From Bacteroidales bacterium (GTDB lineage: Bacteria > Bacteroidota > Bacteroidia > Bacteroidales > UBA932), in assembly GCA_016285455.1 (NCBI GenBank), contig JAEEQS010000001.1:186001-250000 (forward strand): a stretch of DNA of 64,000 nucleotides, in the 5' to 3' direction. The notes below the pieces were generated by a model. The model made no database searches. It saw nothing but the letters and a program-made list of their open reading frames with translations, and was not told the origin of the DNA. A program made the translations under genes and the position numbers. Positions 2,413-63,039 of the stretch are shown in pieces. The stretch's first letter is position 1, and the number at the start of each line of letters is the position of its first letter.

Positions 2413-4443
2413 CTATTTCTTTCCTCTCTTTGAAAGCAGTTCCTTAAGAGCGTTCATCTCGTCTCTGAAGCGTGCCGCTGAAATGAAGTCCAGTTCCTTG
2501 GCTGCGTTCTCCATCTTTATCCTTGAGCTTTCTATGCTCTTTTTCAGGTCAGCGTCAGACATAGACGATATAACAGGGTCGTTTGCAACCGATTCTGCAT
2601 CAGGCATATCAAATCTAGACGCAATTTCCGCCAGAGTCCTGTCACGCCCCAGAACATTCCTTTCTGTCTTTTCAATCTGGGTAGGGGTGATGTTGTGGGC
2701 TTTGTTGTAATCCATCTGCTTTTTCCTTCGGCGGTTGGTCTCGTCTATGGTTTCCCGCATGCTTCTTGTTATGGTGTCGGCATACATTATGACGCATCCG
2801 TTCAGGTTCCTAGCGGCTCGGCCTGCCGTCTGAGTCAGGGCGGTAGTGCTTCTCAGGAAGCCTTCCTTGTCCGCATCCAGTATGGCAACCAATGAAACTT
2901 GCGGCAGGTCAAGCCCTTCCCTGAGAAGGTTTACTCCAATCAGCACGTCGAACAGTCCTTTCTGGAAATCTTCTATAATCTGGATCCTTTCCATCGTGTC
3001 CACGTCTGAATGTATGTAGCTGCACCTTACGCCGTTCCCGTAGAGGTATTTGTAAAGGTCTTCTGCCATTCTCTTGGTCAGCGTGGTAACCAGTATCCTC
3101 TCGTCCTTTTCGGCCCTGACAGCGATTTCTTCCATCAGGTCGTCTATCTGGTTCTTTGTCGGCCTTACAATCACAGGCGGATCCAGAAGCCCCGTAGGCC
3201 TTACAAGCTGCTCAGCGATAAGTCCCTGGCTTTCTTCCAGTTCAAAGTCTGCAGGAGTGGCGCTCACGTAAACCGTCTGGTTCGTCAGGCTCTGGAATTC
3301 CTCGAACCTCAGAGGGCGGTTGTCTGCCGCTGCAGGAAGGCGGAAACCATACTCTATTAGAGTCTGCTTTCTTGAGCGGTCTCCTCCGCTCATCGCCCTT
3401 ATCTGTGGCACGGTCACGTGGCTTTCGTCTATGAAGGTTATGTAGTCTTTCGGGAAATAGTCGAGCAGGCAGAACGGCCTTGTTCCGGCCGGCCTTCCGT
3501 CAAAGTACCTGGAGTAGTTCTCTATTCCCGGGCACCATCCCAGTTCCTTTATCATCTCCAGGTCGTACTCCACCCTTTGCTTGAGGCGGTTGGCTTCGTG
3601 AGGCTTTCCTATATCCATAAAGTACCCGTACCTCTGGAAGAGATCATCTTGTATCTGCTTCACAGCCAGGGCCATCCTATCCTTGGTGGTGGAGAAAATG
3701 TTTGCCGGGTATATGGATATCTCATCGCGATACTCCTTGGTCGCTCCGCTGGCGGGGTCGAATATCTCAATCTCCTCTACGGTGTTCCCGAAGAAAACAA
3801 TCCTCGCTCCTTCTTCTCCGTATGCAAGATAAATGTCCACGCTGTCTCCCCTTACACGGAATGTCCCTCTCTTGAACTCCACGTCGCTTCTTGAGTACAT
3901 GCTGTCTACCAGCTTGTAAAGAAAAGTGTTCCTGGCAATAGCGTCACCCGTCTTGACCGTTATTGTATTTGCGTGGAAATCAGCAGGATTACCTATGCCA
4001 TATAGGCAGGATACAGAGGATATTACCACTATGTCTCTTCTTCCTGAAAGCAGAGATGCGGATGCTGCAATCCTTAGCTTATCTATTTCATCGTTGATGG
4101 AAAGATCCTTCTCAATGTATGTGTCTGTTGTCGGGATATAGGCTTCCGGCTGGTAATAGTCGTAGTAAGACACAAAGTACTCCACTGCATTCTCCGGAAA
4201 GAAAGACTTGAATTCTCCGTACAACTGGGCGGCCAGGGTCTTGTTGTGGCTGAGTATCAGCGCGGGACGGCCAAGCCTTGCAATGGCGTTTGCCATCGTG
4301 AAGGTCTTGCCGCTTCCGGTTACGCCGAGCAGTGTGACTGCCTTTTCCCCGTCTTCAATGGCGCGGACAATGGCGTCTATGGCTTCCGGCTGGTCACCTG
4401 TTGGCTGGTATCTCGAGTCTAACTTGAACTCCATTTTAGTCAT
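2413..4443 (-). CDS. uvrB: Excinuclease ABC subunit B (UvrB)
   Basis: 676 residues, normal UvrB length. UvrB is the damage-verifying helicase-like subunit of nucleotide excision repair: UvrA loads it on DNA and it then recruits UvrC. Visible features are the Walker A GVTGSGKT near residue 40, the beta-hairpin region with YYDYYQPEAYIP near residue 93, the DESH box, helicase motif VI QTAGRAARN, and the C-terminal UVR domain (AARFRDEMNALK) that contacts UvrC. The chosen ATG overlaps the end of the upstream M28 peptidase gene by 8 bp; a second in-frame ATG lies three codons later. The gene sits in a minus-strand run M28-uvrB-rsh. Confidence 0.97.
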   Translation of the reverse strand: MTKMEFKLDSRYQPTGDQPEAIDAIVRAIEDGEKAVTLLGVTGSGKTFTMANAIARLGRPALILSHNKTLAAQLYGEFKSFFPENAVEYFVSYYDYYQPEAYIPTTDTYIEKDLSINDEIDKLRIAASASLLSGRRDIVVISSVSCLYGIGNPADFHANTITVKTGDAIARNTFLYKLVDSMYSRSDVEFKRGTFRVRGDSVDIYLAYGEEGARIVFFGNTVEEIEIFDPASGATKEYRDEISIYPANIFSTTKDRMALAVKQIQDDLFQRYGYFMDIGKPHEANRLKQRVEYDLEMIKELGWCPGIENYSRYFDGRPAGTRPFCLLDYFPKDYITFIDESHVTVPQIRAMSGGDRSRKQTLIEYGFRLPAAADNRPLRFEEFQSLTNQTVYVSATPADFELEESQGLIAEQLVRPTGLLDPPVIVRPTKNQIDDLMEEIAVRAEKDERILVTTLTKRMAEDLYKYLYGNGVRCSYIHSDVDTMERIQIIEDFQKGLFDVLIGVNLLREGLDLPQVSLVAILDADKEGFLRSTTALTQTAGRAARNLNGCVIMYADTITRSMRETIDETNRRRKKQMDYNKAHNITPTQIEKTERNVLGRDRTLAEIASRFDMPDAESVANDPVISSMSDADLKKSIESSRIKMENAAKELDFISAARFRDEMNALKELLSKRGKK

Positions 4444-5431: not shown

Positions 5432-5474
5432 TACTGTCAAAACGCAAATTTATGACTTTTTCCACGATTAGCAT

Positions 5475-5482: not shown

Positions 5483-5487
5483 TAGTG

Positions 5488-7530
5488 ATGAGTGTGATGA
5501 GAAAAAAAGGATTTGCGGTTGCTTTTTTGGTATGGGTGCTGGCCTTGCTTGCGCCTGTGAAGGGCTTTGCTCAGTATGACATAGACCAGTTCTTCTTGAG
5601 GGGAAGGCAGCTTCTGATAGACGGGAAATATTCCTCAGCGATAGATAATTTCAACACTCTGGTCAGGATAGATTCCACTCTTTATGACGCATACTTTTTC
5701 AGGGGCATAGCAAAGTACAATCTGGGAGACTTCATTGGGGCGGAGAAAGACTTTGACAAATCGCTGAGCCTGAATCCGCTTTATACTCCCGCATACCATT
5801 ACAGGGCAATAACATTGAGCCGGACTGGAAAGTACGAGGCTGCGCTGAAAGATCTGGCTGAAGCGGTGGACCTTAGGCCTAGCTACACCGGCCTTTATTT
5901 CAGCAGGGGAGTGACATATTTCCTCAGCCAGCAGTTTGATAAGGCGGTTGAGGATTTCAATAAGTTCATCAAACAGGAAAGCGGCGAGCCGGACGCCTAT
6001 CTGAACAGAGGAGCCGCTTACACTTTCCTCGGCGACACGCTCAAGGCGCTAGATGACTACAATAAGGCTATAAGCCTGAATATCAATGATCCAGAAGGCT
6101 ATATCAGAAGATCCAGAATCTACTTTATGCAGGGAAGCGATTCCCTTGCCCTGGCGGATCTCAACAAGGCAATCAGGCTGGATACTGCAAACACCTTTGC
6201 ATATTTCAACAGGGCAATCATCCTATACGAGAAGAAGGAAATCAACGGTGCGCTGGATGATTTGAACAAGGTGCTGGAATATGAGCCTGGCAATGCTCTA
6301 ACGCTTTACAACAGGGCCCTAATACGCTCACAGATAGGAGACTTTGACAACGCTCTGGATGATTATGACAGGGTGATTGCCGTAAATCCGCAGAACGTGC
6401 TGGCATATTTCAACCGCGCTGCCGTTTTCCTTCAGATGAACCGCTACAGAGATGCAATGGACGACTATTCCCAGTGCATTAACCTCTATCCGGACTTTGC
6501 AAAGGCTTATATGAACAGAGCTTACGCCAAGGCTCATCTTGGGCAGTACAATTCAGCAAGGCGAGACGAGGAAATAGCCAGGGAAAAGGTAAAGGAATAC
6601 CGCTATAAAACAAGAGACAGCGTTTCCGCACAGATATTTGCAGACACCACCAAGAGATTTGACCAGATGATTTCTCTGGAGTCCGATTTTGCCAAGAGAG
6701 ACTTTTCCAACAACGAGCTTCTCCAGTACAGAGATGTGGATATTCAGCTGAAGCCGCTGTTCAAGTTCAGCCTGGCGGAAAAGAGGCCGGAAAGGATGGC
6801 TATGGACAGAAGGTTCGAGTCTCTTAAAATGGAGGATTTCATAGATGATCTGCCTGTGGCTTCTGACCTTGTGGCTGTAAGGCATTCATATGATACACAG
6901 AAGCTAGAAGCATCTCTGAAAAGGCTGAGAGACTCTCTAAGCGCGGTAATCTCCAAGATGAAAGACAGGGAAGAAGCCATAGACGCTCTGGTCTATTTCT
7001 CCAGGGCTCTGGCAAACGACTCCCAGAACCGTTTCAACGAGGCTCTGGGAGACTATGACAAGGCAGTCAGCCTCCAGCCGGACAATCCGTTCTTCTACAT
7101 AAACCGCGGAGCTTTGCAGGCTGAGATGATAGACTTCATTTCTTCGATGGAGCAGAACGTACAGGTGCTTTCTCTGGACAATTCCCGTACTGCCAGGGCC
7201 AGGGTGAACGAGAACCGCTCCAACTATGACTATACTGCTGCAATCCACGATATGAAAAAGGCCGCGGCCTTGATGCCGGAATTCCCTTATTCGTACTACA
7301 ATCTCGGAAACCTTTACACTCTGTCTTCGGATCTACCAGAAGCTATTCTGCAATATACCAAGGCAATACAGCTTTATCCCGCTTTGCCTGAGGCTTATTA
7401 CAACAGGGGCTTGGTTCTGATTTATCTCAAAGATAGCGAGAAGGGCTGTCTGGATATGAGCAAGGCCGGAGAATTGGGCGTTCCCGAAGCCTACAGCGTT
7501 ATCAGCAAGTACTGCATCAAGAAGCAGTAA
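5488..7530 (+). CDS. Secreted tetratricopeptide-repeat protein
   Basis: 680 residues from ATG 5488, or 677 from 5497. The signal peptide is clear (MRKKGFAVAFLVWVLALLAP, cleaved after KGFAQ). Upstream codons to 5452 are open but contain the -7 element, so I exclude them. The mature protein has at least ten TPR units in two blocks, about residues 30-370 and 500-670, with the usual A-x-x-x-R/Y and P helix-turn positions (for example AYFNRAIILYE). A non-TPR linker lies about 375-500. TPR proteins are scaffolds, so an envelope protein-binding role is likely; the partner is unknown. Convergent with the phosphoesterase gene, which ends 1 bp away. Confidence 0.9.
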   Translation: MSVMRKKGFAVAFLVWVLALLAPVKGFAQYDIDQFFLRGRQLLIDGKYSSAIDNFNTLVRIDSTLYDAYFFRGIAKYNLGDFIGAEKDFDKSLSLNPLYTPAYHYRAITLSRTGKYEAALKDLAEAVDLRPSYTGLYFSRGVTYFLSQQFDKAVEDFNKFIKQESGEPDAYLNRGAAYTFLGDTLKALDDYNKAISLNINDPEGYIRRSRIYFMQGSDSLALADLNKAIRLDTANTFAYFNRAIILYEKKEINGALDDLNKVLEYEPGNALTLYNRALIRSQIGDFDNALDDYDRVIAVNPQNVLAYFNRAAVFLQMNRYRDAMDDYSQCINLYPDFAKAYMNRAYAKAHLGQYNSARRDEEIAREKVKEYRYKTRDSVSAQIFADTTKRFDQMISLESDFAKRDFSNNELLQYRDVDIQLKPLFKFSLAEKRPERMAMDRRFESLKMEDFIDDLPVASDLVAVRHSYDTQKLEASLKRLRDSLSAVISKMKDREEAIDALVYFSRALANDSQNRFNEALGDYDKAVSLQPDNPFFYINRGALQAEMIDFISSMEQNVQVLSLDNSRTARARVNENRSNYDYTAAIHDMKKAAALMPEFPYSYYNLGNLYTLSSDLPEAILQYTKAIQLYPALPEAYYNRGLVLIYLKDSEKGCLDMSKAGELGVPEAYSVISKYCIKKQ

Positions 7531-8847
7531 TCATTTCTTTATCACGACAGAGTCAACTTCTTTTCCCTCCCTGTCCAGAAGGGTAAGCGTCATGGAGTTT
7601 CTGTCTACTTCCATAAGCATTGCGCCAATAGTCTTTCCGCCCTCGCTCCAGCGCTTTGCTATAATGTCCTGGTTGTGTGTAAGTTCTCCCACATCTACTC
7701 CTCTCTCATTGTCTGAAGAAGGAGTCTGGATATATACGGTTGGAAGATTCTTGCTTCTTACATAAATGTGGTTGTTGGCTCCAAGGGCCAGGTCCACTCT
7801 GCATTCTTCAAACAGGTCTTTCCATCTTCTCATCTGGCTGGTCTTTCCGTTTTCTCCGAAAAACCACTGATAATGCTCGCACACCACCTTGAACTTGGCA
7901 TTGCTGGAATTCAGTACATTGCGAGTCCACGCTTGAGCCTTTGCCAATCCTAAGCTGTCTCTCATGCTCTCGCTGTTCAGCATCACAAACAGCACGTTCT
8001 TGTATGTGAAATGGTAGCAAACTCCTTCTTCTCCTTCATATCCGTTCAGAGGATTTGCTGTGGCATTCTTGAAAAACTGGTTTGTCAGCTGATACTTCCT
8101 TGTCATATTGTCGTGATTGCCGTTCAGCCCCGCCCACATATAGTTCCTGAACGCATCCACCTGGTACATCTCCTTCCAGAAACTCCAGCTTCCGCCCCAA
8201 GCGCAAACATCTCCCAGATGAAGCACCCAGTCAAAGCCTTTCCTGTTTTTCTTTACCGCATAGTCATTAACTGTTTCCACCATCTTCATCGCTGAGGCAA
8301 GCCTTTTGGGAAGAGGAGGATAGCTGTGGAAATCAGAGATTACGCAAGCGCTCCATTTGTCGTTTCCTGCGGTTTTGAATTTGCTGATATCTGACTGGCT
8401 GTGGCGGGTAATGCCGTTATCGTCTTTATAGCTGCACACAATCCAGTAGCAATATTCGGTATCGGGTTTCAGGTTGGAGAAAGAGCAGCTGAACTTGTGG
8501 AACCGAGCATCTTCGTAGAAATTCTCGCCGTTAGCTTTCTTGGAATAAATGCTGTCATAGACTGTGCAGAGCGTTTCTTCACCAGCTTTCAGAAGATAGC
8601 CTTTTACACGAGTATTCCTTTTATTCTGAAACAGATAGATTAAACAATTGTCTGTAGATTCTCTGGCGGCAAAACTCACGTTCATCTGCGTTGAGCAATC
8701 TTCTCCAGGGCAAGTGTTGATGCTGAAGATCTCTCTTCCCGTACTGTCTCTATTAACGGAAAGAGAATCTGACAGAAGATATTTGCTCGGATTGCAGCCG
8801 GCAAGAGCCAGAAGCAAGAAGGCAAAACTGAATAAAAGCTTTTTCAT
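7531..8847 (-). CDS. Lipoprotein calcineurin-like phosphoesterase (purple acid phosphatase type)
   Basis: 438 residues from ATG 8847. The frame stays open to 9102, but MKKLLFSFAFLLLALAGC is an SPII signal with lipobox LALAGC, which fixes the start. An FNIII-like N-terminal region (about 30-160) resembles the purple acid phosphatase N-domain, followed by a metallophosphatase domain: SDFH, GDVCAWGG, GNHDNM, CEHYQW and NNHIYVR. In active relatives the last motif is GHxHxYxR; here the first His is Asn (ANNH), so one metal ligand may be missing. Probably a surface or periplasmic phosphoesterase with an altered site; substrate unknown. Confidence 0.85.
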   Translation of the reverse strand: MKKLLFSFAFLLLALAGCNPSKYLLSDSLSVNRDSTGREIFSINTCPGEDCSTQMNVSFAARESTDNCLIYLFQNKRNTRVKGYLLKAGEETLCTVYDSIYSKKANGENFYEDARFHKFSCSFSNLKPDTEYCYWIVCSYKDDNGITRHSQSDISKFKTAGNDKWSACVISDFHSYPPLPKRLASAMKMVETVNDYAVKKNRKGFDWVLHLGDVCAWGGSWSFWKEMYQVDAFRNYMWAGLNGNHDNMTRKYQLTNQFFKNATANPLNGYEGEEGVCYHFTYKNVLFVMLNSESMRDSLGLAKAQAWTRNVLNSSNAKFKVVCEHYQWFFGENGKTSQMRRWKDLFEECRVDLALGANNHIYVRSKNLPTVYIQTPSSDNERGVDVGELTHNQDIIAKRWSEGGKTIGAMLMEVDRNSMTLTLLDREGKEVDSVVIKK

Positions 8848-8941: not shown

Positions 8942-9469
8942 ATGAAAATGTCGAGATTTCTTTTTATCGCCTCAGCGATTTTTCTGTTAGCCGCAGCTTC
9001 CTGCAAGAATGGCGGCAAGGTTGGCGGAGCTGATGACAAGACGTCAGAAGATGCTATTCGCCAGAGGATTGAGCAGATGATGAAGGTGGAAGTGTTCACC
9101 AAAGAGAACAGGGCTCAGTATCTGGGAAAAGAGCTGTGCGAACTTTACAGCAAGATTGACCCGTTCAGCGAGGAGGGAGATCTTTACCTGGATTTCCAGT
9201 GGGCTGGAAAGGTGCTGGACGCCTGCTGTGAAGACCCTAACATCCGAAAAGCCACGCTGAAGGAAGTGAGAGTTTTGCCGGGCAACAAGGCTGAGGCTGA
9301 CGTAAACTTTGTGGATCCTCCTTGCTATGACTGGAACTACACCTTGCTTCTTGGCTTCAACGGCCAGGAGTGGATGATAGAAGACGTCATCTGGCAGCAC
9401 GCTGAATATGAGCCCACAAAGGAAACAGAAGAAGCCAGAGGATTTCTTGCAGAGCATAATGTAGAATAG
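8942..9469 (+). CDS. Small lipoprotein, possibly DUF3828-like
   Basis: 175 residues beginning with an SPII signal ending LAAASC; starts at 8942 or 8948 are both possible. The mature part is acidic, ends in an NTF2-like-looking segment (YNYTLLLGFNGQEWMIEDV style) and contains no catalytic motif I recognise. It loosely resembles DUF3828 lipoproteins of Bacteroidales, but I cannot confirm this. It starts divergently from the phosphoesterase lipoprotein and lies 17 bp before the S9 peptidase gene, so it may share that transcript. Function unknown. Confidence 0.75.
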   Translation: MKMSRFLFIASAIFLLAAASCKNGGKVGGADDKTSEDAIRQRIEQMMKVEVFTKENRAQYLGKELCELYSKIDPFSEEGDLYLDFQWAGKVLDACCEDPNIRKATLKEVRVLPGNKAEADVNFVDPPCYDWNYTLLLGFNGQEWMIEDVIWQHAEYEPTKETEEARGFLAEHNVE

Positions 9470-9486: not shown

Positions 9487-11916
9487 ATGAAAAGAATATT
9501 GCTTTCCATCATTCTTCTTGCATTTGCCGTTTGCGCATATGCCCAGAAGGTTACAACTGTAGACAAATTCAACTATGCCGGGCCGTACCAGGTGTCTTCT
9601 CCGCTGTTTGATACCAAGGACGCCAAGGGCAAGGCCTTTGACCGCAAGAGCCTGATGGACGCGGCTCCGCTTAAGGCTAAGCAGACTAGAGAAGTTGCTT
9701 CCGGAGCTGTTCCTGAAGCTGAAGGTGAGAGTGTAGGAGTGTTCTCTTTCTTCATCAACGACCTGAATTTCAAGAAGGTGGATGTTGAGATAAAGGGAAC
9801 CAAAGATTACAAGGCTTATCTCGACGGCAAGGAAAGTTCCCTCAAAGGCCTCAAGCTGGATCCAAAGCAGCACCGCATAGACATAAAGGTTCTCAGCGAT
9901 GGGGAAGGCAAGGATTCACTTTTCGTAAGCCTGAAGTCTGATAGCGAAGTGGCCTGGACTTTGTCCCAGAAACATAATTTCGGGATGGACGAGGTTCTCT
10001 ACGGCGAAAAGATGGGAAACGCAAGCATATCCGAAAACGGCCAGTACATCATTGTAAACACTTCAGATACAGACCACAAGGCCAAGACCACCCGTAAGAC
10101 TCAACTAAAGGAAATATCAACCGGAAAGGTGCTCAGGGAAAAGGGTGGAATTTTCTGGCTCAACGGCGGGAATGAGTACGCCTGGTACGAGACTATAGAC
10201 GGCAACCGAAAGCTCTGGAAAGCCATCCCAGGCGGAGCGGACGAGCTAGTGGCCGAGAACCTGCCGAAGGGCAATATTTTCCTGGCCCCGAATATGAAGT
10301 TTATGATTATCGCTGAGGAAGCTGAGGGACCTAAGGAGGATGCAGATGTTTACCAGATTCTGGATCCGGATGACCGGCAGCCAGGATGGAGAGACCGCTC
10401 ATACTTCAGCTATTACGACCTGGAAACTGGCAACCTGAGAAGGCTTTCATTCGGAACTAAAGAGGTTTATCCTTTGGAAATTACGGATGATTCCAGATAT
10501 ATGCTGGTGGAGATCCACAACCTTCAGGTCCAGAAAAGGCCGTCTCGCAGTACGGACTTGTGTGTTGTGGACCTTCAGACCTGGGCTGTAGATACCATAA
10601 TCAAAGGCGACGGCTTCCTTTCCAGGGCTATGTTCTCGCCTGACGGGAAGAGCCTGCTTGTTCTGGGCTCTCCTGAAGCATTTGGCGGCATAGGCAACGC
10701 AACACCTGGCCAGACTCCGAATATGTACGATATCCAGATGTTCATTTTTGATATAGCCAGCTGCACTCCAAGATGCATTACCAAGGACTTTGACCCTTCA
10801 ATTGACGGAGCCAGCTGGAACCGCAAAGACGGAAAGATCTATGCCGGAGCAACGGAAGGCGAATACAAGACTCTCTATGCCTTTGATCCTAAGAGCGGAA
10901 AGAGCCGCAAGCTGAGCCAGATTCCTGAAGTTGTTACCTCCTGGAATCTGCCTGAAAAGGGAGAGACGATGTGTTATGTGGGCGGCGGAGCTTCATCTCC
11001 TTCCAAGCTCTATATCAAGGACATGAAGAAAGACAAGGACTATCTTCTGGAAGACGTTTCTGCAGATAAGTACCAAGACGTGATAATGGGCGAGTGCAAA
11101 AGCTGGAGCTTTACCAACCGCCTCGGCGACGAGATACAGGGAAGGTTTTATCTTCCTCCAGGATTTGACCCTGAAAAGAAGTATCCGATGATAGTCAACT
11201 ACTATGGCGGATGCACTCCTACAACCCGCTCTCTTGAAAGCCGTTACCCGCAGCAGTACTATGCCAGCCTTGGCTATGTGGTTTATGTGATACAGCCAAG
11301 CGGGGCCGTAGGCTTTGGCCAGAAGTTCTCCGCCCGCCACGTGGAGACCTGGGGAGATTACGTTGCTGATGACATCATTGAAGGAGTTAAGAAGTTTTGC
11401 GATGCCCATCCGTTTGTAAACCGTGATAAGATAGGCTGCATTGGAGCCAGCTACGGCGGATTTATGACTCAGTATCTTCAGACCAAGACCGACATATTTG
11501 CCTGCGCAGTTTCCCACGCCGGAATAAGCAATATTGCAAGTTACTGGGGAGAAGGCTATTGGGGCTATTCCTACGGTCACGTGGCAAGCGCCGAGAGTTA
11601 TCCGTGGAACAATCCTGATATGTACACCAAGCATTCTCCGCTTTTCAATGCAGACAAGATCCACACGCCGCTGCTTCTGCTTCACGGTTCTGCAGACACC
11701 AACGTTCCTCACATAGAGAGTATCCAGATGTTTACAGCCCTGAAGATTCTGGGCCGGGAAGTGGCGTTTGTGGAAGTTAAGGGAGAGAACCACTGGATTC
11801 TGGATTACCCTAAGAGAATAAAGTGGAGCAACACCATTATGGCCTGGTTCCAGAAATACTTGAAAGACGATCCTTCCTGGTGGGAGAATATGTATCCAGA
11901 GAAAAACCTTTATTAG
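9487..11916 (+). CDS. Secreted S9-family prolyl oligopeptidase-like serine peptidase
   Basis: 809 residues from ATG 9487 with a signal peptide (MKRILLSIILLAFAVCAYAQ). The N-terminal part (to about 560) is a beta-propeller-like region with repeated SPDGKSLLVLGSP-type blades; the C-terminal part is an alpha/beta-hydrolase domain. The catalytic triad is visible: Ser655 in GASYGGF, Asp737 in GSADTNVPH and His769 in GENHWI. S9 enzymes of this type (DPP-IV or acylaminoacyl-peptidase-like) cut short peptides, often after proline or alanine; subfamily specificity cannot be read here. Likely periplasmic, in peptide nutrition. The zinc-ribbon/CD225 gene begins 3 bp after the stop. Confidence 0.93.
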   Translation: MKRILLSIILLAFAVCAYAQKVTTVDKFNYAGPYQVSSPLFDTKDAKGKAFDRKSLMDAAPLKAKQTREVASGAVPEAEGESVGVFSFFINDLNFKKVDVEIKGTKDYKAYLDGKESSLKGLKLDPKQHRIDIKVLSDGEGKDSLFVSLKSDSEVAWTLSQKHNFGMDEVLYGEKMGNASISENGQYIIVNTSDTDHKAKTTRKTQLKEISTGKVLREKGGIFWLNGGNEYAWYETIDGNRKLWKAIPGGADELVAENLPKGNIFLAPNMKFMIIAEEAEGPKEDADVYQILDPDDRQPGWRDRSYFSYYDLETGNLRRLSFGTKEVYPLEITDDSRYMLVEIHNLQVQKRPSRSTDLCVVDLQTWAVDTIIKGDGFLSRAMFSPDGKSLLVLGSPEAFGGIGNATPGQTPNMYDIQMFIFDIASCTPRCITKDFDPSIDGASWNRKDGKIYAGATEGEYKTLYAFDPKSGKSRKLSQIPEVVTSWNLPEKGETMCYVGGGASSPSKLYIKDMKKDKDYLLEDVSADKYQDVIMGECKSWSFTNRLGDEIQGRFYLPPGFDPEKKYPMIVNYYGGCTPTTRSLESRYPQQYYASLGYVVYVIQPSGAVGFGQKFSARHVETWGDYVADDIIEGVKKFCDAHPFVNRDKIGCIGASYGGFMTQYLQTKTDIFACAVSHAGISNIASYWGEGYWGYSYGHVASAESYPWNNPDMYTKHSPLFNADKIHTPLLLLHGSADTNVPHIESIQMFTALKILGREVAFVEVKGENHWILDYPKRIKWSNTIMAWFQKYLKDDPSWWENMYPEKNLY

Positions 11917-12303: not shown

Positions 12304-12659
12304 TGGCTAGACAATTGGACAAAACGGAAAAATGGGGGCTGCGGCTACTCTTCCTGTTTGTGGCAGGATGGCTGTCTTTGTTTGCATATACGAAATGGGG
12401 GTTGAAAGATCCTGAGATCTCCCTCAGGCAAGGCGATATCAAAAGGCTTCTAAATTGCGAGATTTTTTCAGATACAGCCAATGTTCATTCCTCTGTTTAC
12501 GTAGACAAGGTCAAGATCGCTGAGTTTGATTCCATTACCCCGTCGGGGACAAAATACATCAAATTCCGGTACAGAATCAAGAGCAAGGAAAACGGCAAAT
12601 CTTGGCACGACGGCAGCGTGGAAGACAAGGATATGGAATACAGCAATCTGAAGTATTAG
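12303..12659 (+). CDS. Hypothetical protein with one N-terminal membrane helix
   Basis: 118 residues from the ATG overlapping the previous stop by one base. One TM segment (about 13-30, LRLLFLFVAGWLSLFAY) is followed by a mostly beta, polar domain of about 85 residues. No family recognised. Co-translation with the CD225-like gene suggests they act together, but nothing in the sequence shows how. Convergent with the membrane protein gene that ends 4 bp later. Confidence 0.65.
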   Translation: MARQLDKTEKWGLRLLFLFVAGWLSLFAYTKWGLKDPEISLRQGDIKRLLNCEIFSDTANVHSSVYVDKVKIAEFDSITPSGTKYIKFRYRIKSKENGKSWHDGSVEDKDMEYSNLKY

Positions 12660-21160: not shown

Positions 21161-23431
21161 CTACCTTATGTAGAACGGCCACCAGATGCCGAACTTGAGG
21201 GCTCGCTGAGGCCTGATGTACCTGTAGGTGGAGTAATACTCGTTGTTCGGGGTTCCCTGAAGAACGTTCTCGCATTTGACGAAAATGCAGGCTCTCTTCC
21301 ACTGGAGATTCACGAATACGTCCACGTACGGGTTGTTTCCAATCTTGTAGCGTTCCTGGTTGTAGAACATTCCGAGAGCAGGGTCAAAGGCCTGGGCGTA
21401 ATACTTGGTGTTGTAAGTCATATCTGCGCCTATCTGCACGTTCAGAATGTTCTTTACAGCATAGAACTCCAGATAGTACCTCAAGTTCAGTGCCACTTTA
21501 GGAAGCGGAACGATTTCCTGCTTTGAAGACGTTTGAAGAAGGATTCTGTTGTCCAGATGAAGGACTCCGAGCTTTATGTTCTTGGCAATGTATCCGCTTA
21601 TGATGCTCATTGCCTCTCCATTTTGAACAGGGGTGCAGAGAGTGTCCAGATAAACGTTCTTGTTCAGAAGGGTGTAGCCGACAGATGCCTCCAGGCCCCA
21701 GTGCGGAATCTCCAGTTTGCCCTGAATGCTGGTGGTGCTGGTCTTGTCAAAGTCGTAGTCGAACAGATGGTGGTTAGAAGTATAGTTGTTTAGGAAGTAA
21801 GATGGTTTCCTCAGCGATGAGGAGAATTTGGCCGTCAGGTGGATTCCGTCCTTTACTGCCCAGGACGAGAAGCGCATTGCGGCGTCCAGGCTGAAATTGC
21901 CTTTGTAATAACCTGCTATGTCGGCTTTTGCAAGTGCATTCCAGGCAAAGAACTTCTTGAACTTTCCTCCTGCGCCAAAGTAGGCGTAAATGTTGTTGTA
22001 GGTCTTGTTCTGGTTGCCGGAAATGAAATACTCTGGCTTGAATCCGTAGAAATTCAGCATCTGGTGGCCTATTCCGCCGTCCAGATTTGAGACTACGGCA
22101 TCGGCATTCCACGGCTGGATTTTCAGGAAGAAGCGGTTCTCAAGGTTCATCACCCTGGCCGAGTCTGCCGTTGTTGTAGGATTCAGCAGGAAAATATCCC
22201 TGTAAAGAGATCTTCCAACAGAGTCAGTTATGTTGTCTGTATAGCTTCTGCTAAAGACGGTGTATTCTCCGTAATGACCAAAGTATGTGGCAGTTCCTTC
22301 TCCCGTGGATAGAGTATCCTTGATCTTGTTTCCCAGGGAATCTCTCTGGGCCTTCCATCTGATTGGAACTCCGTAGCTGTGCGTTATGAAGAACGTGTTC
22401 CTTCTCATAATGGAATTGGCGTTGGAAAGATAAACTGGGACGGTGCGCACATCTATGGTTGTATCGCTGATCATCTTCAGGTCTTCCACTCCGCCGTTCT
22501 CTTCTCTCTTCAGGCGGGAGAATATGTAACCGCCCTGGGCTACATATTTCTTGCCCAGATAGTTTCCGGTAATGGAGAATGTTCTGAAATCGGTTTTCTC
22601 ATGCTGCAAAAGTCCGCCTGCTCCGTTTCTCTGGTAGAGAATTGTGAAGTTGAAGGAAGGTGTGAAATTCTGTGTATGGAGGAATTTTATATTGTCTTCG
22701 CTCTTCTGGCGGTTTGCAAACAGGGTTCCGTAATAAGCCAGTTCCGTATATGGAGTCTTTGTGTTGTAAAACGGCAGACTCTCAGGCATATACGTATATG
22801 TCATATACGGAGTGAAGAACGGGAACAGCTCCTGAGTCTGGCGATTGTGGTAGTTGTAAGGCAGAGCCGCGCTGCCGCTTACTCCAAGATACTGGCCGTT
22901 GATGTCATCGCGGTGGAAAGGCAGGTCGTGGAAGTGGTAGTTGAATGTGGTATCCATCTTCAAGACTTCCTGGTTGTTGAGGTAGGTGTCGTGCTTCCAG
23001 GAGAAGATTCTAGTGTATTTTATGCTGTCTGCAAATAGGTAAGTGTCAAGAACTCTCGGCGTATTGCGGATTATGCTGTCGTTATGCTTATTAATGCTGT
23101 CACGTTTCATCCTCCTAAGTTCCTTTGGAGTGTAGACCTTTATCTGGCTCAGGGAATCGGCCTTTCTCAGGGAGTCTATGGAGAACAGTACTGCATCGCT
23201 GAGCCCCATCTTCCTCAGAGAATCAGGGCTGAGGTTCAGCTCATACAGAGAGTCTATCATCTGCTGGTATGCCGTCTTGACAATTGTGTCGCAGAGCCTG
23301 AATGGAACTCTGTGTTTTCCAGGGTCTTTTTCCGGCCTGCTCCAAGCGCAGACTAGAAGCACGGCTCCAAGTCCAATGCAGGAGATAAGGATTTTCCTCA
23401 GCGATTGGCATATCTTGTTATTGCTGCTCAT
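21161..23431 (-). CDS. Putative porin (Bacteroidota outer-membrane beta-barrel)
   Basis: 756 residues. An N-terminal signal/TM segment (about 10-30) is followed by a charged periplasmic part with repeated DSLRK units (about 60-130), then about 600 residues of alternating aromatic and polar positions typical of an outer-membrane barrel (for example PYMTYTYMPESLPFYNT), ending with aromatic IWWPFYIR at the C-terminus. It fits the putative porin family of Bacteroidota (PF14121-like). The start overlaps the 3' end of pncB by 14 bp; the stop abuts the mltF-like start. Substrate unknown. Confidence 0.82.
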   Translation of the reverse strand: MSSNNKICQSLRKILISCIGLGAVLLVCAWSRPEKDPGKHRVPFRLCDTIVKTAYQQMIDSLYELNLSPDSLRKMGLSDAVLFSIDSLRKADSLSQIKVYTPKELRRMKRDSINKHNDSIIRNTPRVLDTYLFADSIKYTRIFSWKHDTYLNNQEVLKMDTTFNYHFHDLPFHRDDINGQYLGVSGSAALPYNYHNRQTQELFPFFTPYMTYTYMPESLPFYNTKTPYTELAYYGTLFANRQKSEDNIKFLHTQNFTPSFNFTILYQRNGAGGLLQHEKTDFRTFSITGNYLGKKYVAQGGYIFSRLKREENGGVEDLKMISDTTIDVRTVPVYLSNANSIMRRNTFFITHSYGVPIRWKAQRDSLGNKIKDTLSTGEGTATYFGHYGEYTVFSRSYTDNITDSVGRSLYRDIFLLNPTTTADSARVMNLENRFFLKIQPWNADAVVSNLDGGIGHQMLNFYGFKPEYFISGNQNKTYNNIYAYFGAGGKFKKFFAWNALAKADIAGYYKGNFSLDAAMRFSSWAVKDGIHLTAKFSSSLRKPSYFLNNYTSNHHLFDYDFDKTSTTSIQGKLEIPHWGLEASVGYTLLNKNVYLDTLCTPVQNGEAMSIISGYIAKNIKLGVLHLDNRILLQTSSKQEIVPLPKVALNLRYYLEFYAVKNILNVQIGADMTYNTKYYAQAFDPALGMFYNQERYKIGNNPYVDVFVNLQWKRACIFVKCENVLQGTPNNEYYSTYRYIRPQRALKFGIWWPFYIR

Positions 23432-27966: not shown

Positions 27967-27970
27967 CGTT

Positions 27971-28861: not shown

Positions 28862-28887
28862 ATTGCGCCCCTAAATCTTTTTTAGAA

Positions 28888-29139
28888 ATGGATATACTGA
28901 AACTTAAGACCCAAATTATAGATGCTCTCAATCTGGAAGAGCTTACACCAGAGGACATTGCAGATGATGCTCCATTATTCGGCACAGAGGGGCTGGGCCT
29001 GGATTCTATTGATGCCCTGGAACTGATTGTGTTGCTGGAGAAGAACTACGGCATAAAGCTCACAGATCCTTCTCAGGCAAAGGGGGTGCTTACCAGCGTA
29101 AGCGCCATCGCCAAGTTCATCGAGGAAAACCAGAAGTAA
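28888..29139 (+). CDS. Acyl carrier protein
   Basis: 83 residues from ATG 28888, which restarts after the acyltransferase stop; the longer open frame upstream runs in a shadow frame of the acyltransferase and is discarded. GLGLDSIDALEL contains the Ser that takes 4'-phosphopantetheine. Acidic (about a quarter Asp/Glu), typical four-helix ACP. It lies 6 bp before the ketosynthase gene and carries the chain they build. Most probably cluster-specific, since housekeeping acpP normally sits with fabF. Confidence 0.9.
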   Translation: MDILKLKTQIIDALNLEELTPEDIADDAPLFGTEGLGLDSIDALELIVLLEKNYGIKLTDPSQAKGVLTSVSAIAKFIEENQK

Positions 29140-29145
29140 TCCCTG

Positions 29146-32223: not shown

Positions 32224-32227
32224 TGTT

Positions 32228-32965: not shown

Positions 32966-32966
32966 T

Positions 32967-38265: not shown

Positions 38266-38832
38266 TCAGCGGATTTCCATTTTTCTTTTAACCTCGGCGA
38301 TGACAGCATCGCCAACCAGAGCCTTTGCGCACTCGAAGGCGAATTCAATGCATACTCCGGCGCCGCGTCCAGTAACAAGAAGGCCGTCTGTCTCGGTCTT
38401 TTCAGAAGACAGGGCGTATGATTTTGAAACGATATCTCTGACTGATGTGTGGCAGGTGGCTTTTTTGCCCGTCATAATGCTGAAAGCGGCCAGAGCAGAC
38501 GGGGCTCCGCAAATTGCGGCAACCAGCTTTCCTTTCTTCTCGAATTCCTTCAGCAACGCTCCGACAAGACTGTTTTCCGCCAGATTCCTGTAACCAGGGA
38601 ATCCGCCCGGAAGAATAACCATATCTCCTTGAAGGACAATTCTATCCACATCCTTTTCATCGCTGAGGAAAGAGTCCGCCTTAAGGAAAACATTGTGGGA
38701 AGACGGCACTAAAAGATCATTGCCCAATGATACTTTTTCCACCTCTACTCCGCACCTTTCCAGCACGTCTATAGGGGCTGTGGCTTCCAGCAGCTCAAAC
38801 CCCGGAGCCAAAAGCAAAAAAACTTTCTTCAT
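38266..38832 (-). CDS. DJ-1/PfpI-family protein (YajL-like)
   Basis: 188 residues, one DJ-1/PfpI domain. VFLLLAPGFELLEA with the conserved Glu, MVILPGGFPGYRNL, VAAICGAPSAL with the nucleophilic Cys elbow, and GAGVCIEFAFE near the end. YajL/DJ-1 proteins act in oxidative-stress protection and as proposed glyoxalases or deglycases. The -7 element TAACTTTG is the complement of 38840-38847, 8 bp from the start, again a very short leader. Confidence 0.9.
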   Translation of the reverse strand: MKKVFLLLAPGFELLEATAPIDVLERCGVEVEKVSLGNDLLVPSSHNVFLKADSFLSDEKDVDRIVLQGDMVILPGGFPGYRNLAENSLVGALLKEFEKKGKLVAAICGAPSALAAFSIMTGKKATCHTSVRDIVSKSYALSSEKTETDGLLVTGRGAGVCIEFAFECAKALVGDAVIAEVKRKMEIR

Positions 38833-49092: not shown

Positions 49093-51033
49093 TTACTTCA
49101 CTTCCTCAAAGTCCACGTCGGTTACTTCGCCGTCCTGGCCGTTGGAACCATTTCCGGTACTGCCGGTATTGCCGGAGTTCTGGCCGTAGCCGCCCTGAGT
49201 ACCGGCGCCCGGATTAGGACCCTGTGCGCCTGCTGCGCGGTTCATCTCCTCGCTGGCAGCGTGCCAAGCCTCGTTGAGCTGGTTCATCAGATTGTCAAGC
49301 TCAGCGATGTTCTTGTTCTGGTGGGCTTCCCTGAGTTTGCGTGTGGCTTCCTCGATCCTGGACTTCTTGTCGGCAGGAATCTTGTCGCCATAGTCCTTCA
49401 GGTTCTTCTCGCTGGCAAAGATCTGGGCGTCTGCTGAATTCAGCTTGTCTGCCTTCTCCCTTTCTGCCTTGTCGGCCTGCTCGTTGGCCTTGGCCTCGTC
49501 TCTCATCCTCTTGATTTCAGCATCGCTGAGGCCGCTAGAAGCTTCAATTCTAATTTGCTGCTCCTTGCCGGTTCCCTTGTCCTTTGCGGAAACGTTAAGG
49601 ATACCGTTGGCGTCTATGTCGAAGGTTACCTCAATCTGAGGAACGCCTCTTGGTGCAGGCATAATTCCGTCCAGGTGGAATACTCCGATAGACTTGTTGC
49701 CGGCTGCCATAGGACGCTCGCCCTGAAGCACATTCACCTCTACAGATGGCTGATTGTCAGATGCAGTTGAGAATATCTGGCTCTTGCGGGTAGGGATGGT
49801 GGTGTTGGCTTCGATGAGCTTTGTGAACACTCCGCCGTAGGTCTCGATACCGAGGCTCAGAGGAGTAACGTCCAGCAGAAGCACGTCCTTTACATCGCCT
49901 GCCAGAACGCCGCCCTGGATGGATGCTCCGATAGCAACAACCTCGTCTGGGTTTACACTCTTGTTAGGCTCTTTTCCGAAGAAGTCCTTAACCATCTGCT
50001 GAACCTTAGGGATACGGGTTGAACCGCCCACGAGCAGAACCTCGTTGATGTCGGATGCGCTCAGGTGAGCGTCTGAGAGAGCCTTGCGGCAAGGCTCGAT
50101 GCACTTCTGGAACAGGCTGTCTGCCAGAGCCTCGAACTTGGCCCTTGTAAGAGTCTTTACAAAGTGCTGAGGAACGCCGTCAATAGGCATGATGTAAGGC
50201 AGGTTGATCTCAGTGGTAGTCTGGCTTGAAAGCTCGATCTTAGCCTTCTCTGCTGCTTCCTTCAGCCTCTGGAGAGCCATAGGGTCTTTGCTCAGGTCAG
50301 CTCCGCTGTGGTCGTTCTTGAACTCCTGTACCATCCAGTCTATGATAACGTGGTCGAAGTCATCTCCTCCAAGGTGGGTATCACCGTTGGTGGACTTAAC
50401 TTCGAATACGCCGTCGCCGAGCTCAAGGATTGAGATATCGAAGGTACCGCCGCCAAGGTCGAACACTGCAACCTTTGCGTCTTTCTCCTTCTTGTCCAGA
50501 CCGTATGCCAAAGCGGCTGCGGTAGGCTCGTTGATGATTCTCTTTACGTGAAGTCCGGCAATTTCTCCAGCCTCTTTGGTAGCCTGCCTCTGAGAGTCAG
50601 AGAAGTATGCGGGAACAGTGATAACAGCCTCTGTAACTGCCTGTCCCAGATGATCCTCTGCGGTCTTCTTCATCTTCTGGAGAACCATTGCAGAAATCTC
50701 CTGTGGAGAATAGAGCTTGCCGTCTATGTCTATTCTTGGAGTGTTGTTGTCTCCGCGAACAACTTTGTAAGGCACTCTGGCGATTTCGGTCTGTACCCTG
50801 TCATAGGTCTCGCCCATGAACCTCTTGATAGAGTATATGGTCTTGGTAGGATTGGTGATTGCCTGACGTTTTGCAGGATCGCCGATCTTCCTCTCTCCGT
50901 TTCCGGTGAAAGCAACTACTGAAGGAGTAGTTCTTTTTCCTTCGCTGTTGATGATTACGGTAGGCTCAGAGCCTTCCATTACTGAGACACAACTGTTGGT
51001 TGTTCCCAAGTCGATTCCGATAATTTTTCCCAT
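49093..51033 (-). CDS. dnaK: Molecular chaperone DnaK (Hsp70)
   Basis: 646 residues. It starts with [20 protein letters not shown], has the ATPase signatures [13 protein letters not shown] and [16 protein letters not shown], a substrate domain with [15 protein letters not shown], and a Gly/Asn-rich tail ending [10 protein letters not shown]. DnaK folds proteins with DnaJ and GrpE, here encoded together at 59-61 kb. A GGAGATAAAATT stretch before ATG 51033 is one of few Shine-Dalgarno-like sequences in this window, in keeping with high expression. The shared palindrome-like motif upstream is described separately. Confidence 0.98.
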
Positions 51034-53391: not shown

Positions 53392-54195
53392 ATGGAAGAT
53401 AATTCAATTTACAGGAGACTAGCGAAGGCTGAATATGATGACATTGCCAGCCGCATCTTGTTTGAAGACAATCACTTCCTTGTATTCAACAAGCGTAGCG
53501 GGGAGATAGTTCAGGGAGACAAGACCGGAGACGAGCCTCTCAGCGAAACTCTCAAGGCCTTTATTGCGCAGAGAGACGGCAAGGCCGGTCAGGTGTTTAT
53601 GGGAGTTGCCCACAGGCTGGACCGTCCTGTAAGCGGAGCCGTGCTGTTTGCCAAGACAAGCAAGGGGCTGGAAAGGATTAACGAGATGCTCCGCGATGGT
53701 CAGGTTCACAAGACCTACTGGGCTTTGGTCCAGACCCCTGAGAATGGGGTGCCGGACAGCGTGGCAGATCCGGACGGCTGGACAGAGCTCCACGACTTCA
53801 TCTATCGCGATGAAAAAAGCAATAAATCCTACGTGTTCAGAGGAAAAGGCACTCCTGTCAATATCTATAAGGAGGCTCGTCTTCTGTACAGGATACTGAA
53901 AGTTCTGGACCGTTACACTCTTGTGGAAGTGGTGCTTCTGACCGGCAGGCATCATCAGATAAGATGCCAGCTGTCTTCCATAGGCTGCCCTATAAAAGGA
54001 GACCTCAAGTACGGCTCCAGACGTTCTAACCGCGACGGCTCCATCTGCCTGCACGCCAGGCTTCTGGAATTTATTCATCCGATAGGGCGGAAAGACGCCA
54101 AAGGAGAGGATACGGGAAACGACAGGCTCATAAGCGTAGAAGCTCCGCTTTCAGGAGAAATGGGCCGTATACTTGGAATTGACTCAGCGATATGA
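53392..54195 (+). CDS. RluA-family RNA pseudouridine synthase
   Basis: 267 residues, RluA/RluD family without an S4 domain. The catalytic motif HRLDRPVSG (Asp attacks uridine) lies near residue 77, with VHKTYWALV and TGRHHQIRCQLSSIGCPIKGD downstream. It makes pseudouridine in rRNA or tRNA; which site cannot be told without the S4 domain. ATG 53392 follows the -7 element by 13 bp. The SDR gene overlaps its stop by 4 bp (ATGA). Confidence 0.92.
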   Translation: MEDNSIYRRLAKAEYDDIASRILFEDNHFLVFNKRSGEIVQGDKTGDEPLSETLKAFIAQRDGKAGQVFMGVAHRLDRPVSGAVLFAKTSKGLERINEMLRDGQVHKTYWALVQTPENGVPDSVADPDGWTELHDFIYRDEKSNKSYVFRGKGTPVNIYKEARLLYRILKVLDRYTLVEVVLLTGRHHQIRCQLSSIGCPIKGDLKYGSRRSNRDGSICLHARLLEFIHPIGRKDAKGEDTGNDRLISVEAPLSGEMGRILGIDSAI

Positions 54196-55443: not shown

Positions 55444-56007
55444 TCAAGCAAAAATCGCACCAGTAGCGCGGATTTGGGTGGATGAAATGTTGTTTAGCGG
55501 GGCGTCTTCCAGATAGAGGGCCTTGTACTTTTTGCACATAGTCTTGACCCTGTAGCCTTTTCTCGGATAGACTATCACCTTGAATTCCTTGAGGATATCT
55601 TCTCCAAGGTACCATTTGGGCATAATCTTGAAGCTGTCTGCCCCGACAACAATTATGTATTCCGTCTTTGGATTCCGCTTCTGTAGCTCCTTCATAGTGT
55701 TGTAGGTGTACAGAGGCTCCTTCAGGTGGAATTCAATATCGTTGACTTTAACTCCCTTGCACTTTACCTGAGGGTTGGCTTCAATCTTTGGCTTCAGCTC
55801 TTTGTTGAACGCCCTTATTGCTTTTCTCAGCGATTGGAGCCGTTCCTTTGGGTCCTGAAGCATCTTCTTGTCTTTGAATGGATTGTGGGGGCTGAGAATC
55901 ATTTCAAAGCGGTCTATTCCGCAATTGAGAATGACATATTCAGCCACTCCCAGATGTCCGTAGTGGAGAGGGTTGAAAGAACCGAAGTAAAGTGCCGCTT
56001 TCTTCAT
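55444..56007 (-). CDS. nadD: Nicotinate-nucleotide adenylyltransferase, short C-terminus
   Basis: 187 residues. NadD adenylates nicotinate mononucleotide, the NAD step after PncB. The nucleotidyl-transfer motif GSFNPLHYGHL, SPHNPFKDKK, IIVVGADSF and ISSTQIRAT are present. The protein stops just seven residues after the STxIR motif (ATGAIFA), whereas usual NadD has about 20 more residues (the xxxYLVPExVxxYI tail). No frame downstream restores such a tail, so either the C-terminus is naturally short or it was lost. One base separates it from gmk. Confidence 0.9.
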   Translation of the reverse strand: MKKAALYFGSFNPLHYGHLGVAEYVILNCGIDRFEMILSPHNPFKDKKMLQDPKERLQSLRKAIRAFNKELKPKIEANPQVKCKGVKVNDIEFHLKEPLYTYNTMKELQKRNPKTEYIIVVGADSFKIMPKWYLGEDILKEFKVIVYPRKGYRVKTMCKKYKALYLEDAPLNNISSTQIRATGAIFA

Positions 56008-56008
56008 T

Positions 56009-59341: not shown

Positions 59342-59380
59342 CTGGAGGGTTTTCCTTGATTTGCCTTATTGACAAAGATA

Positions 59381-59513: not shown

Positions 59514-61314
<1,801 letters not shown>

Positions 61315-63039
61315 ATGAGAAAATTCAACTTCTGCGCTGCTTTGTTCCTTTGTGCTTTGTCCGTATTCCCGGCCTTTTCCCAGGATACGGATTATTCGCA
61401 TCAAAAAGAAGTGACAGACAGGTTCTTAGTTCCTATTGAGTCTTACAATGGATTTGCCGGAACATACGGTGAGCTGAGGGGAAACCATTTTCACTGCGGC
61501 TTGGATATGAGAACCGGCGGCGTGGAGGGGAAGAAAATCTATGCAGCGGATGACGGCTATGTTTCAAGGATAACAATAGGGCCGTGGGGATACGGCAATA
61601 TGATAGAAATAACTCATCCGTCGGGATACAAAACCATCTACGGTCATCTGAAGAGTTTTGCGCCTAAATACAAAAAGCTGGTAATTAAAAAGCAATACGA
61701 AGAAGAGAGCTGGGGTCAGCACATTGATTTCCCAAAAGACAGCCTTCCTGTAAAAAGAGGGGATCTCATTGCATATTCCGGCAATACGGGATCATCCGGC
61801 GGACCGCACCTTCACTTTGAGGTTCTGGATGAAAACGGAACTCCGGTTAATCTCCAGATTACTGGTATCTTTAACCTTAAAGACAATGAGAATCCAGTAA
61901 TCCGCGATGTCAGAATCGTAGGCTGCGCTCCGTTTTACGGTACTCTTTATACATTTCCGGTTGAGAGCAAAGGAGATACCGTCAAGGTTCCAAAGTCTTT
62001 TTACATTGCTGTGGATTCTTACGACGTGATGGCCGGAACTCCCGGAAAACTTGCCGTTTACAAATATGAAACCTTCCTGGACGGGGAGAGTTTCTTCCGC
62101 TTTGAAGAAGGTAACATCCCATATTCCGAAGGGCGATATATAGCATCGCTTCTGGACCATCCGCTAAGGCGCTCGACCGGCCGTTATTTCGTAAAGACTC
62201 AGATTGATCCCAACAACGGCCTTGCAGGTAGGATTAAGGCTGAAAACGATGGAATTGTCAGCATCGTCGATACACTTATTCACTTATTAAGGATAGAGGT
62301 CACCGATGTATATGGCAACAAAACCGTTAAGGAAATTAACGTGGCGCGGTGTGATTCCCTTTTCAGCGGAAGCGTTCCTTTTTCTCCGAAAGGAGAGTTT
62401 GCTGCCTGGGACAAAGACAATAAATATGTGTTTGACGGCTTAAGCGTACTGATTCCGGAAAAAGCCCTTTTCAGAAACGCTTTCTTCTACGCTATCCGAG
62501 AAAGAGACTCCTATGCTCCAGAGAAAAACATTCCCGCAATGAGTCCGCTTTGGAGTGTAGGAGATGAGAATATTCCTCTGAACAAGTCTGTTACGCTAAC
62601 ATTAAGATGCTCCGTTCCGGCAATGTACTTGTCCAAGGTAATAGTTGCAAGGGTGGGTCGCGGTGGATCGCTGAGCAGCGTTGGAGGAACCCTAAATGCC
62701 TTGACTAACGAGATGACGGCCAGCGTTTCTTCCTTTGGAAATTATTGCGTGACAGCGGATATGGAGGCTCCTGAAATCTCAATCAGGCTCAAGGAGGGGG
62801 CTGCTGTAAAGGAATCGTCCATAAAGATTACCCTAAAAGACCGCCTTTCCGGAATCCGGAAGTTCAGGTGCGAGATAGACGGGCATTGGGTGGTGGCTCC
62901 TTTGGACGGCAAGACTTCCACCGTGGAAATACCTCTGGCAGATGCCAGAATAGCAAAGGGCAAGCGTCACCGCCTGAAGGTTGAGGCAGAGGACAATGTG
63001 GGAAATAAATCTATGGCTGAGAAAAATTTTACTTGGTAG
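61315..63039 (+). CDS. M23-family zinc metallopeptidase
   Basis: 574 residues with a signal peptide (cleaved about AFSQ). The LytM/M23 domain (about 45-190) has NHFHCGLDMRTG, HPSGYKTIYGHL and GPHLHFEV, so the zinc ligands His-x3-Asp and His-x-His are all present. M23 enzymes cut peptidoglycan cross-bridges. The remaining 380 residues are beta-rich and of unknown kind. Start at the base after the dnaJ stop; anmK follows within 5 bp, so cell-wall genes follow the chaperone operon. Confidence 0.9.
   Translation: MRKFNFCAALFLCALSVFPAFSQDTDYSHQKEVTDRFLVPIESYNGFAGTYGELRGNHFHCGLDMRTGGVEGKKIYAADDGYVSRITIGPWGYGNMIEITHPSGYKTIYGHLKSFAPKYKKLVIKKQYEEESWGQHIDFPKDSLPVKRGDLIAYSGNTGSSGGPHLHFEVLDENGTPVNLQITGIFNLKDNENPVIRDVRIVGCAPFYGTLYTFPVESKGDTVKVPKSFYIAVDSYDVMAGTPGKLAVYKYETFLDGESFFRFEEGNIPYSEGRYIASLLDHPLRRSTGRYFVKTQIDPNNGLAGRIKAENDGIVSIVDTLIHLLRIEVTDVYGNKTVKEINVARCDSLFSGSVPFSPKGEFAAWDKDNKYVFDGLSVLIPEKALFRNAFFYAIRERDSYAPEKNIPAMSPLWSVGDENIPLNKSVTLTLRCSVPAMYLSKVIVARVGRGGSLSSVGGTLNALTNEMTASVSSFGNYCVTADMEAPEISIRLKEGAAVKESSIKITLKDRLSGIRKFRCEIDGHWVVAPLDGKTSTVEIPLADARIAKGKRHRLKVEAEDNVGNKSMAEKNFTW

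Follow-up and report, generated by a model that had tools for sequence, protein, structure and literature searches.

The word ATCGCTGAG is a non-palindromic, strand-balanced 9-mer which occurs genome-wide in a Bacteroidales bacterium, with hundreds of copies scattered through its genes. Together with an A-rich flank, it is probably the local dialect of a putative signal resembling a DNA uptake sequence. The word was first noticed in a stretch of 64 kb (here called the window), which covers positions 186001-250000 of contig 21 in the draft genome G000 (2.15 Mb, 25 contigs). The window contains 27 exact copies between positions 3211 and 62675, 12 on the plus and 15 on the minus strand, exactly as counted in the original prediction. 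Dinucleotide-preserving shuffles of the window (n = 100) yielded a mean of 0.69 copies and a maximum of 5. Over the complete G000 assembly 625 copies were counted, 308 forward and 317 reverse, compared with 0 and 1 for the control pattern, which was ATCGCTGAG read backwards. For further analysis a sample of 464 kb was used, consisting of the window and 400 kb more of G000. It contains 142 copies, where Markov models of order 1, 2, 3 and 4 predict 4.5, 2.2, 3.4 and 6.4, respectively. The Markov comparison that had been proposed earlier thus places the word far above expectation. ATCGCTGAG itself, words overlapping it, variants of it and the companion ATCGCGAT(A) account for all ten 9-mers with the highest order-2 z-scores in the sample.

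Codon usage does not account for this abundance. A simple custom caller defined 395 open reading frames (ORFs) in the 464 kb, which comprise 93% of the bases and contain 135 of the 142 sites. All five coding phases without an in-frame TGA are in use, with 44 and 25 sites on the same strand as the gene and 35, 4 and 27 on the opposite strand. This extends the early remark that the word is read in different codon phases. A full explanation by codon-pair bias had been named as one outcome that would refute the observation. Shuffling of synonymous codons within the ORFs (100 repeats) left a mean of 6.5 and a maximum of 12 copies, compared with 136 observed. The distances between neighboring sites match an exponential distribution (Kolmogorov-Smirnov test, p 0.33). 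Therefore, the gaps of 9-10 kb, which had been considered noteworthy, require no explanation.

The word appears to be one dialect of an evolving motif, as judged from its counts in related genomes. The genus sample comprised 39 genomes, which are 73-96% complete, and 359 genomes were taken from other genera of the same family. Between 168 and 625 copies of ATCGCTGAG were found in 11 of the 39 genus members. The other 28 have fewer, with 30-76 copies in six of them (G252, G222, G189, G258, G157 and G264). The maximum among the 359 genomes of other genera is 59. A mild excess is seen in genus g30 of the same family, where some genomes have 40-59 copies compared with 2-15 of the backward-read control. 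From k-mer scans of the relatives' stretches a second word, TGTCGGGA, emerged. Counted as YTGTCGGGA, it is present in 219-922 copies in 13 genus members, none of which is rich in ATCGCTGAG. Four genomes (G002, G079, G136 and G232) have 71-111 copies and the remaining 22 at most 60, including 18-60 in all 11 ATCGCTGAG genomes. None of the 39 genomes is rich in both dialects and 15 have few of either word.

Further spellings were found in individual genomes. G023 contains TGTCGGGA plus some TGTCGCGA (8 copies vs. 0.1 expected in 60 kb), which occurs once in 22 kb of G001. In 60 kb of G252, ATCGGGA is present 29 times vs. 3.3 expected and ATCGCGAT 16 times vs. 0.4, the latter with both strands counted. 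In stretches of nine other ATCGCTGAG genomes, GTCGCCGAG (27 vs. 0.5) is nearly as enriched as ATCGCTGAG itself (38 vs. 0.9). The core common to all spellings is RTCGS(N)GA. About 20-40 kb were also analyzed from each of ten genomes that represent nine further genera of the family, and no comparable enrichment of these words was detected there.

The distribution of these spellings was compared with a UvrB protein tree, which represents one gene only. It contains 38 genus members and four outside rows; the fragmentary G261 was omitted. A group of 21 rows (support 100/100) consists of G023/G001, which carry TGTCGGGA, and a clade of 19 rows (95/89), which includes all 11 ATCGCTGAG genomes. The remaining 11 TGTCGGGA genomes are located outside this group. 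The first branches within the 19-row clade are G264, G222 and the pair G227/G252, with forks that are partly open. They are followed by the word-poor groups G195/G249/G157 and G189/G258 and then by ten ATCGCTGAG genomes. Word-poor rows occur at several separate places in the tree; the word-poor groups also include G008/G255, G136/G232/G079 and G002. The minimum numbers of changes are 2 for ATCGCTGAG, 3 for TGTCGGGA and 5 for the word-poor state, compared with means of 9.9, 11.3 and 12.0 after shuffling. The outside row L089 has an extreme branch length and falls among the genus rows. Together with the weak resolution of the deep branches, this leaves the branching order near the base uncertain. 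The intermediate spellings of G252 and G023 appear in order along the tree. From this one-gene tree we infer a series from TGTCGGGA via ATCGSGA to ATCGCYGAG, with repeated loss of the word.

A word GTTCAGATGC, first seen in G079, was considered as a third dialect. It was dropped since only G079 (139 copies) and G232 (70 copies) have many and most copies in G232 lie in clustered arrays. These arrays are found on many contigs, in both orientations and at intervals of, for example, 24, 87 and 187 bases. In G216 (L033-L036), the 12-mer CGTGGACAGGCG is repeated 6 times in 77 kb.

The sequence requirements of the word are uneven along its length. In the window each one-base variant of ATCGCTGAG is present in 0-4 copies. 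The specificity of the end bases had been described by about four copies of ATCGCTGA followed by another base and three of TCGCTGAG preceded by another base; the first number was recovered (4), and the second is also 4. In the 464 kb, position 6 is little constrained (T 142, C 58, G 32 and A 25, with 1-3 expected for each). At position 1, G (19) and T (10) are also accepted, as are T and A (22 and 16) at position 9. A slight freedom is seen at position 5, with 7-9 copies each vs. 1-2 expected. Substitutions at positions 2-4 are near chance, and for positions 7 and 8 the counts (0 or 1 copies each) do not exceed chance. In total 267 one-off copies are present beside the 142 exact ones, where about 73 are expected. 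The palindrome ATCGCGAT is a lesser enriched companion, found at 30 places in the 464 kb and, in nine relatives with the ATCGCTGAG dialect, at 26 places in 165 kb.

An A-rich flank is present in both dialects and is strongest on the 3' side. As controls, positions with the same gene, the same phase and the same strand were used (300 control sets). At positions +1 to +8 of ATCGCTGAG, 393 A were counted over 132 sites, compared with 280 in the controls and 328 in the highest control set. For the TGTCGGGA word (129 sites) the corresponding values are 404, 279 and 313. The base directly 5' of ATCGCTGAG is seldom G (7 of 142), and a pyrimidine precedes TGTCGGGA at 138 of 150 sites from five genomes. 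The flanks, said to lack conservation in the original prediction, are therefore not without features, and A is raised on both sides. No second flank segment was found within 25 bases of ATCGCTGAG in the 464 kb.

To analyze the origin of the sites, ten ATCGCTGAG genomes were compared in syntenic DNA, covering the start of the window and further loci, with control words made of the same letters. The ordered comparisons between orthologs are not independent of each other. Within the clade, 95 of 338 comparisons (28%) show an exact counterpart and 310 are ungapped. For the control words 416 of 2527 (16%) are exact. In comparison with word-poor and TGTCGGGA relatives, none of 189 places is exact (control 105 of 1516, 7%) and gaps are found in 32 of 189 (17%, control 4%). 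The comparisons cover 46 distinct sites. For 32 of them the identical word is present in one or more other genomes of the clade, and for 40 a counterpart exists there with no more than two mismatches. A strong difference in at least half of the comparisons was seen for 16 of the 46, some of them in stretches rich in insertions and deletions. An earlier count, according to which sites are conserved no better than background (13 of 64), was based on too few sites and is superseded by the numbers above. According to these comparisons, ATCGCTGAG sites arise mostly by substitution. The sites lie at somewhat variable places, are retained slightly better than other words and for the most part turn over.

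An uptake sequence fits best to the dialects, the A-rich 3' flank, the origin by substitution and the repeated scarcity of the word. A DNA receptor at the cell surface would prefer fragments which carry the word, and the cells would in this way import DNA of their relatives. ComEC would carry one strand inward, and DprA and RecA would recombine it. Since word-bearing alleles would be imported more often, molecular drive would pile up copies. A shift in receptor specificity would lead to a shift of dialect, and loss of uptake to decay of the copies. As no receptor was found, an uptake function of the word is what we infer. The chances are about even, in our estimation, that these Bacteroidales represent a third, independent origin of uptake-sequence-guided sex, with a pilus-free receptor for kin DNA, stepwise respelling and several losses.

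ComEC and DprA were each identified in 38 of the 39 genus genomes, word-poor members included, and helix-hairpin-helix domains in all 39, word-rich and word-poor alike. Among the control genomes, ComEC was found in 10 of 14 and DprA in 11 of 14, so their presence is not discriminating. The type IV pilus/type II secretion ATPase (PF00437) exceeds the cut-off in none of the 39 genomes, compared with 13 of 14 controls; weak matches below the cut-off are present in 31 of the 39. The receptor would therefore be of a non-pilus kind, located at the surface or in the outer membrane, and perhaps of a type that genetic work on Riemerella has revealed for the Bacteroidota. In Riemerella anatipestifer, which belongs to the Bacteroidota, transformation was described to require ComEC, DprA, ComF and RecA as well as four unfamiliar proteins, which include an outer-membrane protein with a CarboxypepD_reg domain adjoining a DUF5689 protein; the term "uptake sequence" does not occur in the main text of that paper (PMC8459023). 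Such a CarboxypepD_reg/DUF5689 pair is also found in G000. It is located in a co-directional run of genes for a protein with a weak BACON match, Endonuclease_NS, Exo_endo_phos_3, CarboxypepD_reg, DUF5689 and Peptidase M3. The pair is an attractive candidate, but it does not track the word within the genus, and no receptor is named here. DUF5689 was rejected as a general receptor: no match to it was found in 10 of the 13 TGTCGGGA genomes, and the operon is intact in the word-poor G157, G249 and G195.

The nuclease/CarboxypepD_reg/DUF5689 operon (L261:1817-10621 on contig 9 of G000, orthologs L290-L299) contains no exact ATCGCTGAG in 86 kb over 11 genomes, two partial. The remainder of these stretches has 15 exact copies in 115 kb. 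RTCGCNGAG variants occur 27 times in the operon stretches.

Established genomic uptake sequences are not known outside the Pasteurellaceae and Neisseriaceae, two proteobacterial families in which uptake is of the pilus type. No report of an uptake sequence in Bacteroidales or Bacteroidota was among the matches listed in our literature searches, and among those listed for the 9-mer none describes such a motif in the title or the start of the abstract. The uptake signal sequences (USS) of Pasteurellaceae were described to arise by mutation and not by insertion, to be spelled differently in subclades and to carry an AT-rich motif on the 3' side of the core; some species are described to have defective competence genes (PMC1626085). 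The word resembles the USS (Hin and Apl types) in its substitution origin, its clade-specific spellings and the A-rich 3' flank. It differs in sequence and phylum, in the PF00437 result, in having one flank segment only and in the raised A content on the 5' side, and its uptake bias is putative. For the DNA uptake sequences (DUS) of Neisseriaceae, dialects with a common core which parallel the species tree were described (PMC3630211), as were 682 one-off copies beside 1,474 exact ones (PMC3868556). Again, the word is similar as an abundant short word with tree-following spellings around a core and common one-base variants. In contrast, the receptor of DUS is the pilin ComP, and the genus analyzed here has no pilus-type ATPase over the cut-off.

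Several observations weigh against an uptake sequence. The lack of PF00437 matches over the cut-off is a difficulty, since the two families with known uptake sequences both work with a pilus-type machine. ComEC, DprA and the helix-hairpin-helix proteins are also present in word-poor members and most control genomes, so no tested gene explains the losses of the word. DUF5689 was found in all 11 ATCGCTGAG genomes, but also in 7 of 15 word-poor and only 3 of 13 TGTCGGGA genomes, and the intact operon of G157, G249 and G195 points in the same direction. Close inverted pairs, which are frequent at gene ends in Neisseria, are nearly absent: the 142 sites, most of them within ORFs, form just 2 pairs of less than 60 bp. 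A is raised upstream as well, with 328 vs. 275 at -8 to -1 of ATCGCTGAG (controls up to 330) and 319 vs. 278 for TGTCGGGA (controls up to 318). Within the clade, gaps at orthologous places are more frequent than for control words (28 of 338, 8%, vs. 79 of 2527, 3%), and the same is true for differences at four or more bases (83 of 338, 25%, vs. 255 of 2527, 10%).

As the main alternative, selection might keep the word as a dispersed, unoriented binding site of a sequence-specific protein inside the cell, involved in nucleoid structure, segregation, replication or repair. Strand balance, genome-wide spread, near-random spacing and the retention of sites above controls are all consistent with such a protein. 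We consider it rather unlikely. A housekeeping factor would hardly be expected to have its site respelled from one sister lineage to the next, or to have few sites in 15 of 39 genomes. Individual sites mostly turn over, and they are found within genes in all stop-free phases. The word could also be written by a biased repair or mutation process without any function of the word itself, as discussed for HIP1 in cyanobacteria or very-short-patch repair in Escherichia coli. Like HIP1, ATCGCTGAG is a clade-specific, hyperabundant short word inside genes; unlike the palindromic HIP1, ATCGCTGAG and TGTCGGGA are not palindromes. Such a process would agree with sites derived mostly from substitution and with the enrichment of position-6 near-variants and of the palindrome ATCGCGAT. 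However, an asymmetric 9-base word that is near-strict at positions 2-4, 7 and 8 and has an A-rich flank is hard to obtain by single-site repair, and each replacement of a dialect would demand a new enzyme specificity. Its probability appears small.

The original prediction had preferred an uptake-like or a binding/repair motif over Chi or KOPS. A replication-oriented element of the latter kind shares with ATCGCTGAG that it is a short over-represented word and nothing else. It is rejected by the even strand distribution and by the orientation to local GC skew (72 with and 70 against in the 464 kb), unless orientation switches at a finer scale, and is very improbable. Of the two motifs that the original prediction preferred, the uptake-like one is the more probable. 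Spread by insertion, as a tiny mobile element or repeat family, might be suspected from the excess of gaps, both within the clade and against word-poor and TGTCGGGA relatives. It is largely refuted by the ungapped majority of the within-clade comparisons; beyond the A-rich tendency no conserved flank is found either, and we regard this origin as extremely improbable.

If ATCGCTGAG is an uptake sequence, this trait evolves more widely and a third case exists without a detected pilus ATPase. The word would then offer a means to tag DNA for bacteria which are hard to manipulate. An ordered dialect series with repeated losses could be used to search for the receptor by gene content, and would be a natural series for the coevolution of receptor and signal. 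Should the word prove to be a site for binding or repair within the cell, the genome motif would nonetheless be new, hyperabundant and quick to change its specificity.

Exact matches to ATCGCTGAG in the window, in window coordinates
Word	Position	Strand	Remark
ATCGCTGAG	3211..3219	-	in uvrB
ATCGCTGAG	5634..5642	-	exact match
ATCGCTGAG	5760..5768	+	exact in 7/9 aligned ATCGCTGAG-dialect relatives
ATCGCTGAG	8288..8296	+	exact match
ATCGCTGAG	8971..8979	-	exact match
ATCGCTGAG	9892..9900	-	exact match
ATCGCTGAG	10309..10317	+	exact match
ATCGCTGAG	12516..12524	+	exact match
ATCGCTGAG	21810..21818	-	exact match
ATCGCTGAG	23195..23203	+	exact match
ATCGCTGAG	23397..23405	-	exact match
ATCGCTGAG	24643..24651	+	exact match
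ATCGCTGAG	29979..29987	+	exact match
ATCGCTGAG	31789..31797	-	exact match
ATCGCTGAG	31984..31992	-	exact match
ATCGCTGAG	33395..33403	-	exact match
ATCGCTGAG	35411..35419	+	exact match
ATCGCTGAG	35631..35639	-	exact match
ATCGCTGAG	36117..36125	-	exact match
ATCGCTGAG	37201..37209	+	exact match
ATCGCTGAG	38659..38667	+	exact match
ATCGCTGAG	49300..49308	-	in dnaK
ATCGCTGAG	49522..49530	+	in dnaK
ATCGCTGAG	54183..54191	-	exact match
ATCGCTGAG	55826..55834	-	exact match
ATCGCTGAG	60304..60312	-	exact match
ATCGCTGAG	62667..62675	+	exact match

Contig 9 of G000 also carries an array of clustered regularly interspaced short palindromic repeats (CRISPR; L301:13042-14798 and L262:1250-5789), with 27 repeats beside Cas1 and a Cas9-like protein of 1216 amino acids. 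Seven fragments of its 26 spacers were compared with IMG/VR and 12 loci were returned. Spacer 11 matches IMGVR_UViG_3300028805_002217 over 30 of 30 bases. The only returned locus that matches a whole spacer (30/30) is L313, which contains no ATCGCTGAG in 11.4 kb; host density predicts about 3, so this is a weak test. The Cas1/Cas9 stretch (L262 1-10742) is without the word, with bounds set after the gaps had been seen. The same applies to a small island 3' of a dihydrouridine synthase gene on contig 14 (L263:11359-19410), which encodes an integrase, a metallophosphatase, AbiEii and GmrSD; it sits in a 21.7 kb word gap also carrying housekeeping genes, and its bounds were chosen in the same way. 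Both stretches agree weakly in direction with the word-free phage locus.

Within the window, inspection of ORF translations by eye revealed a run of genes at positions 27238-36281 for a reductase, an acyltransferase, a carrier protein, a ketosynthase-like protein, a LolA-like protein, a glycosyltransferase and a large exporter. As judged by eye, this run resembles an aryl-polyene-type lipid cluster.

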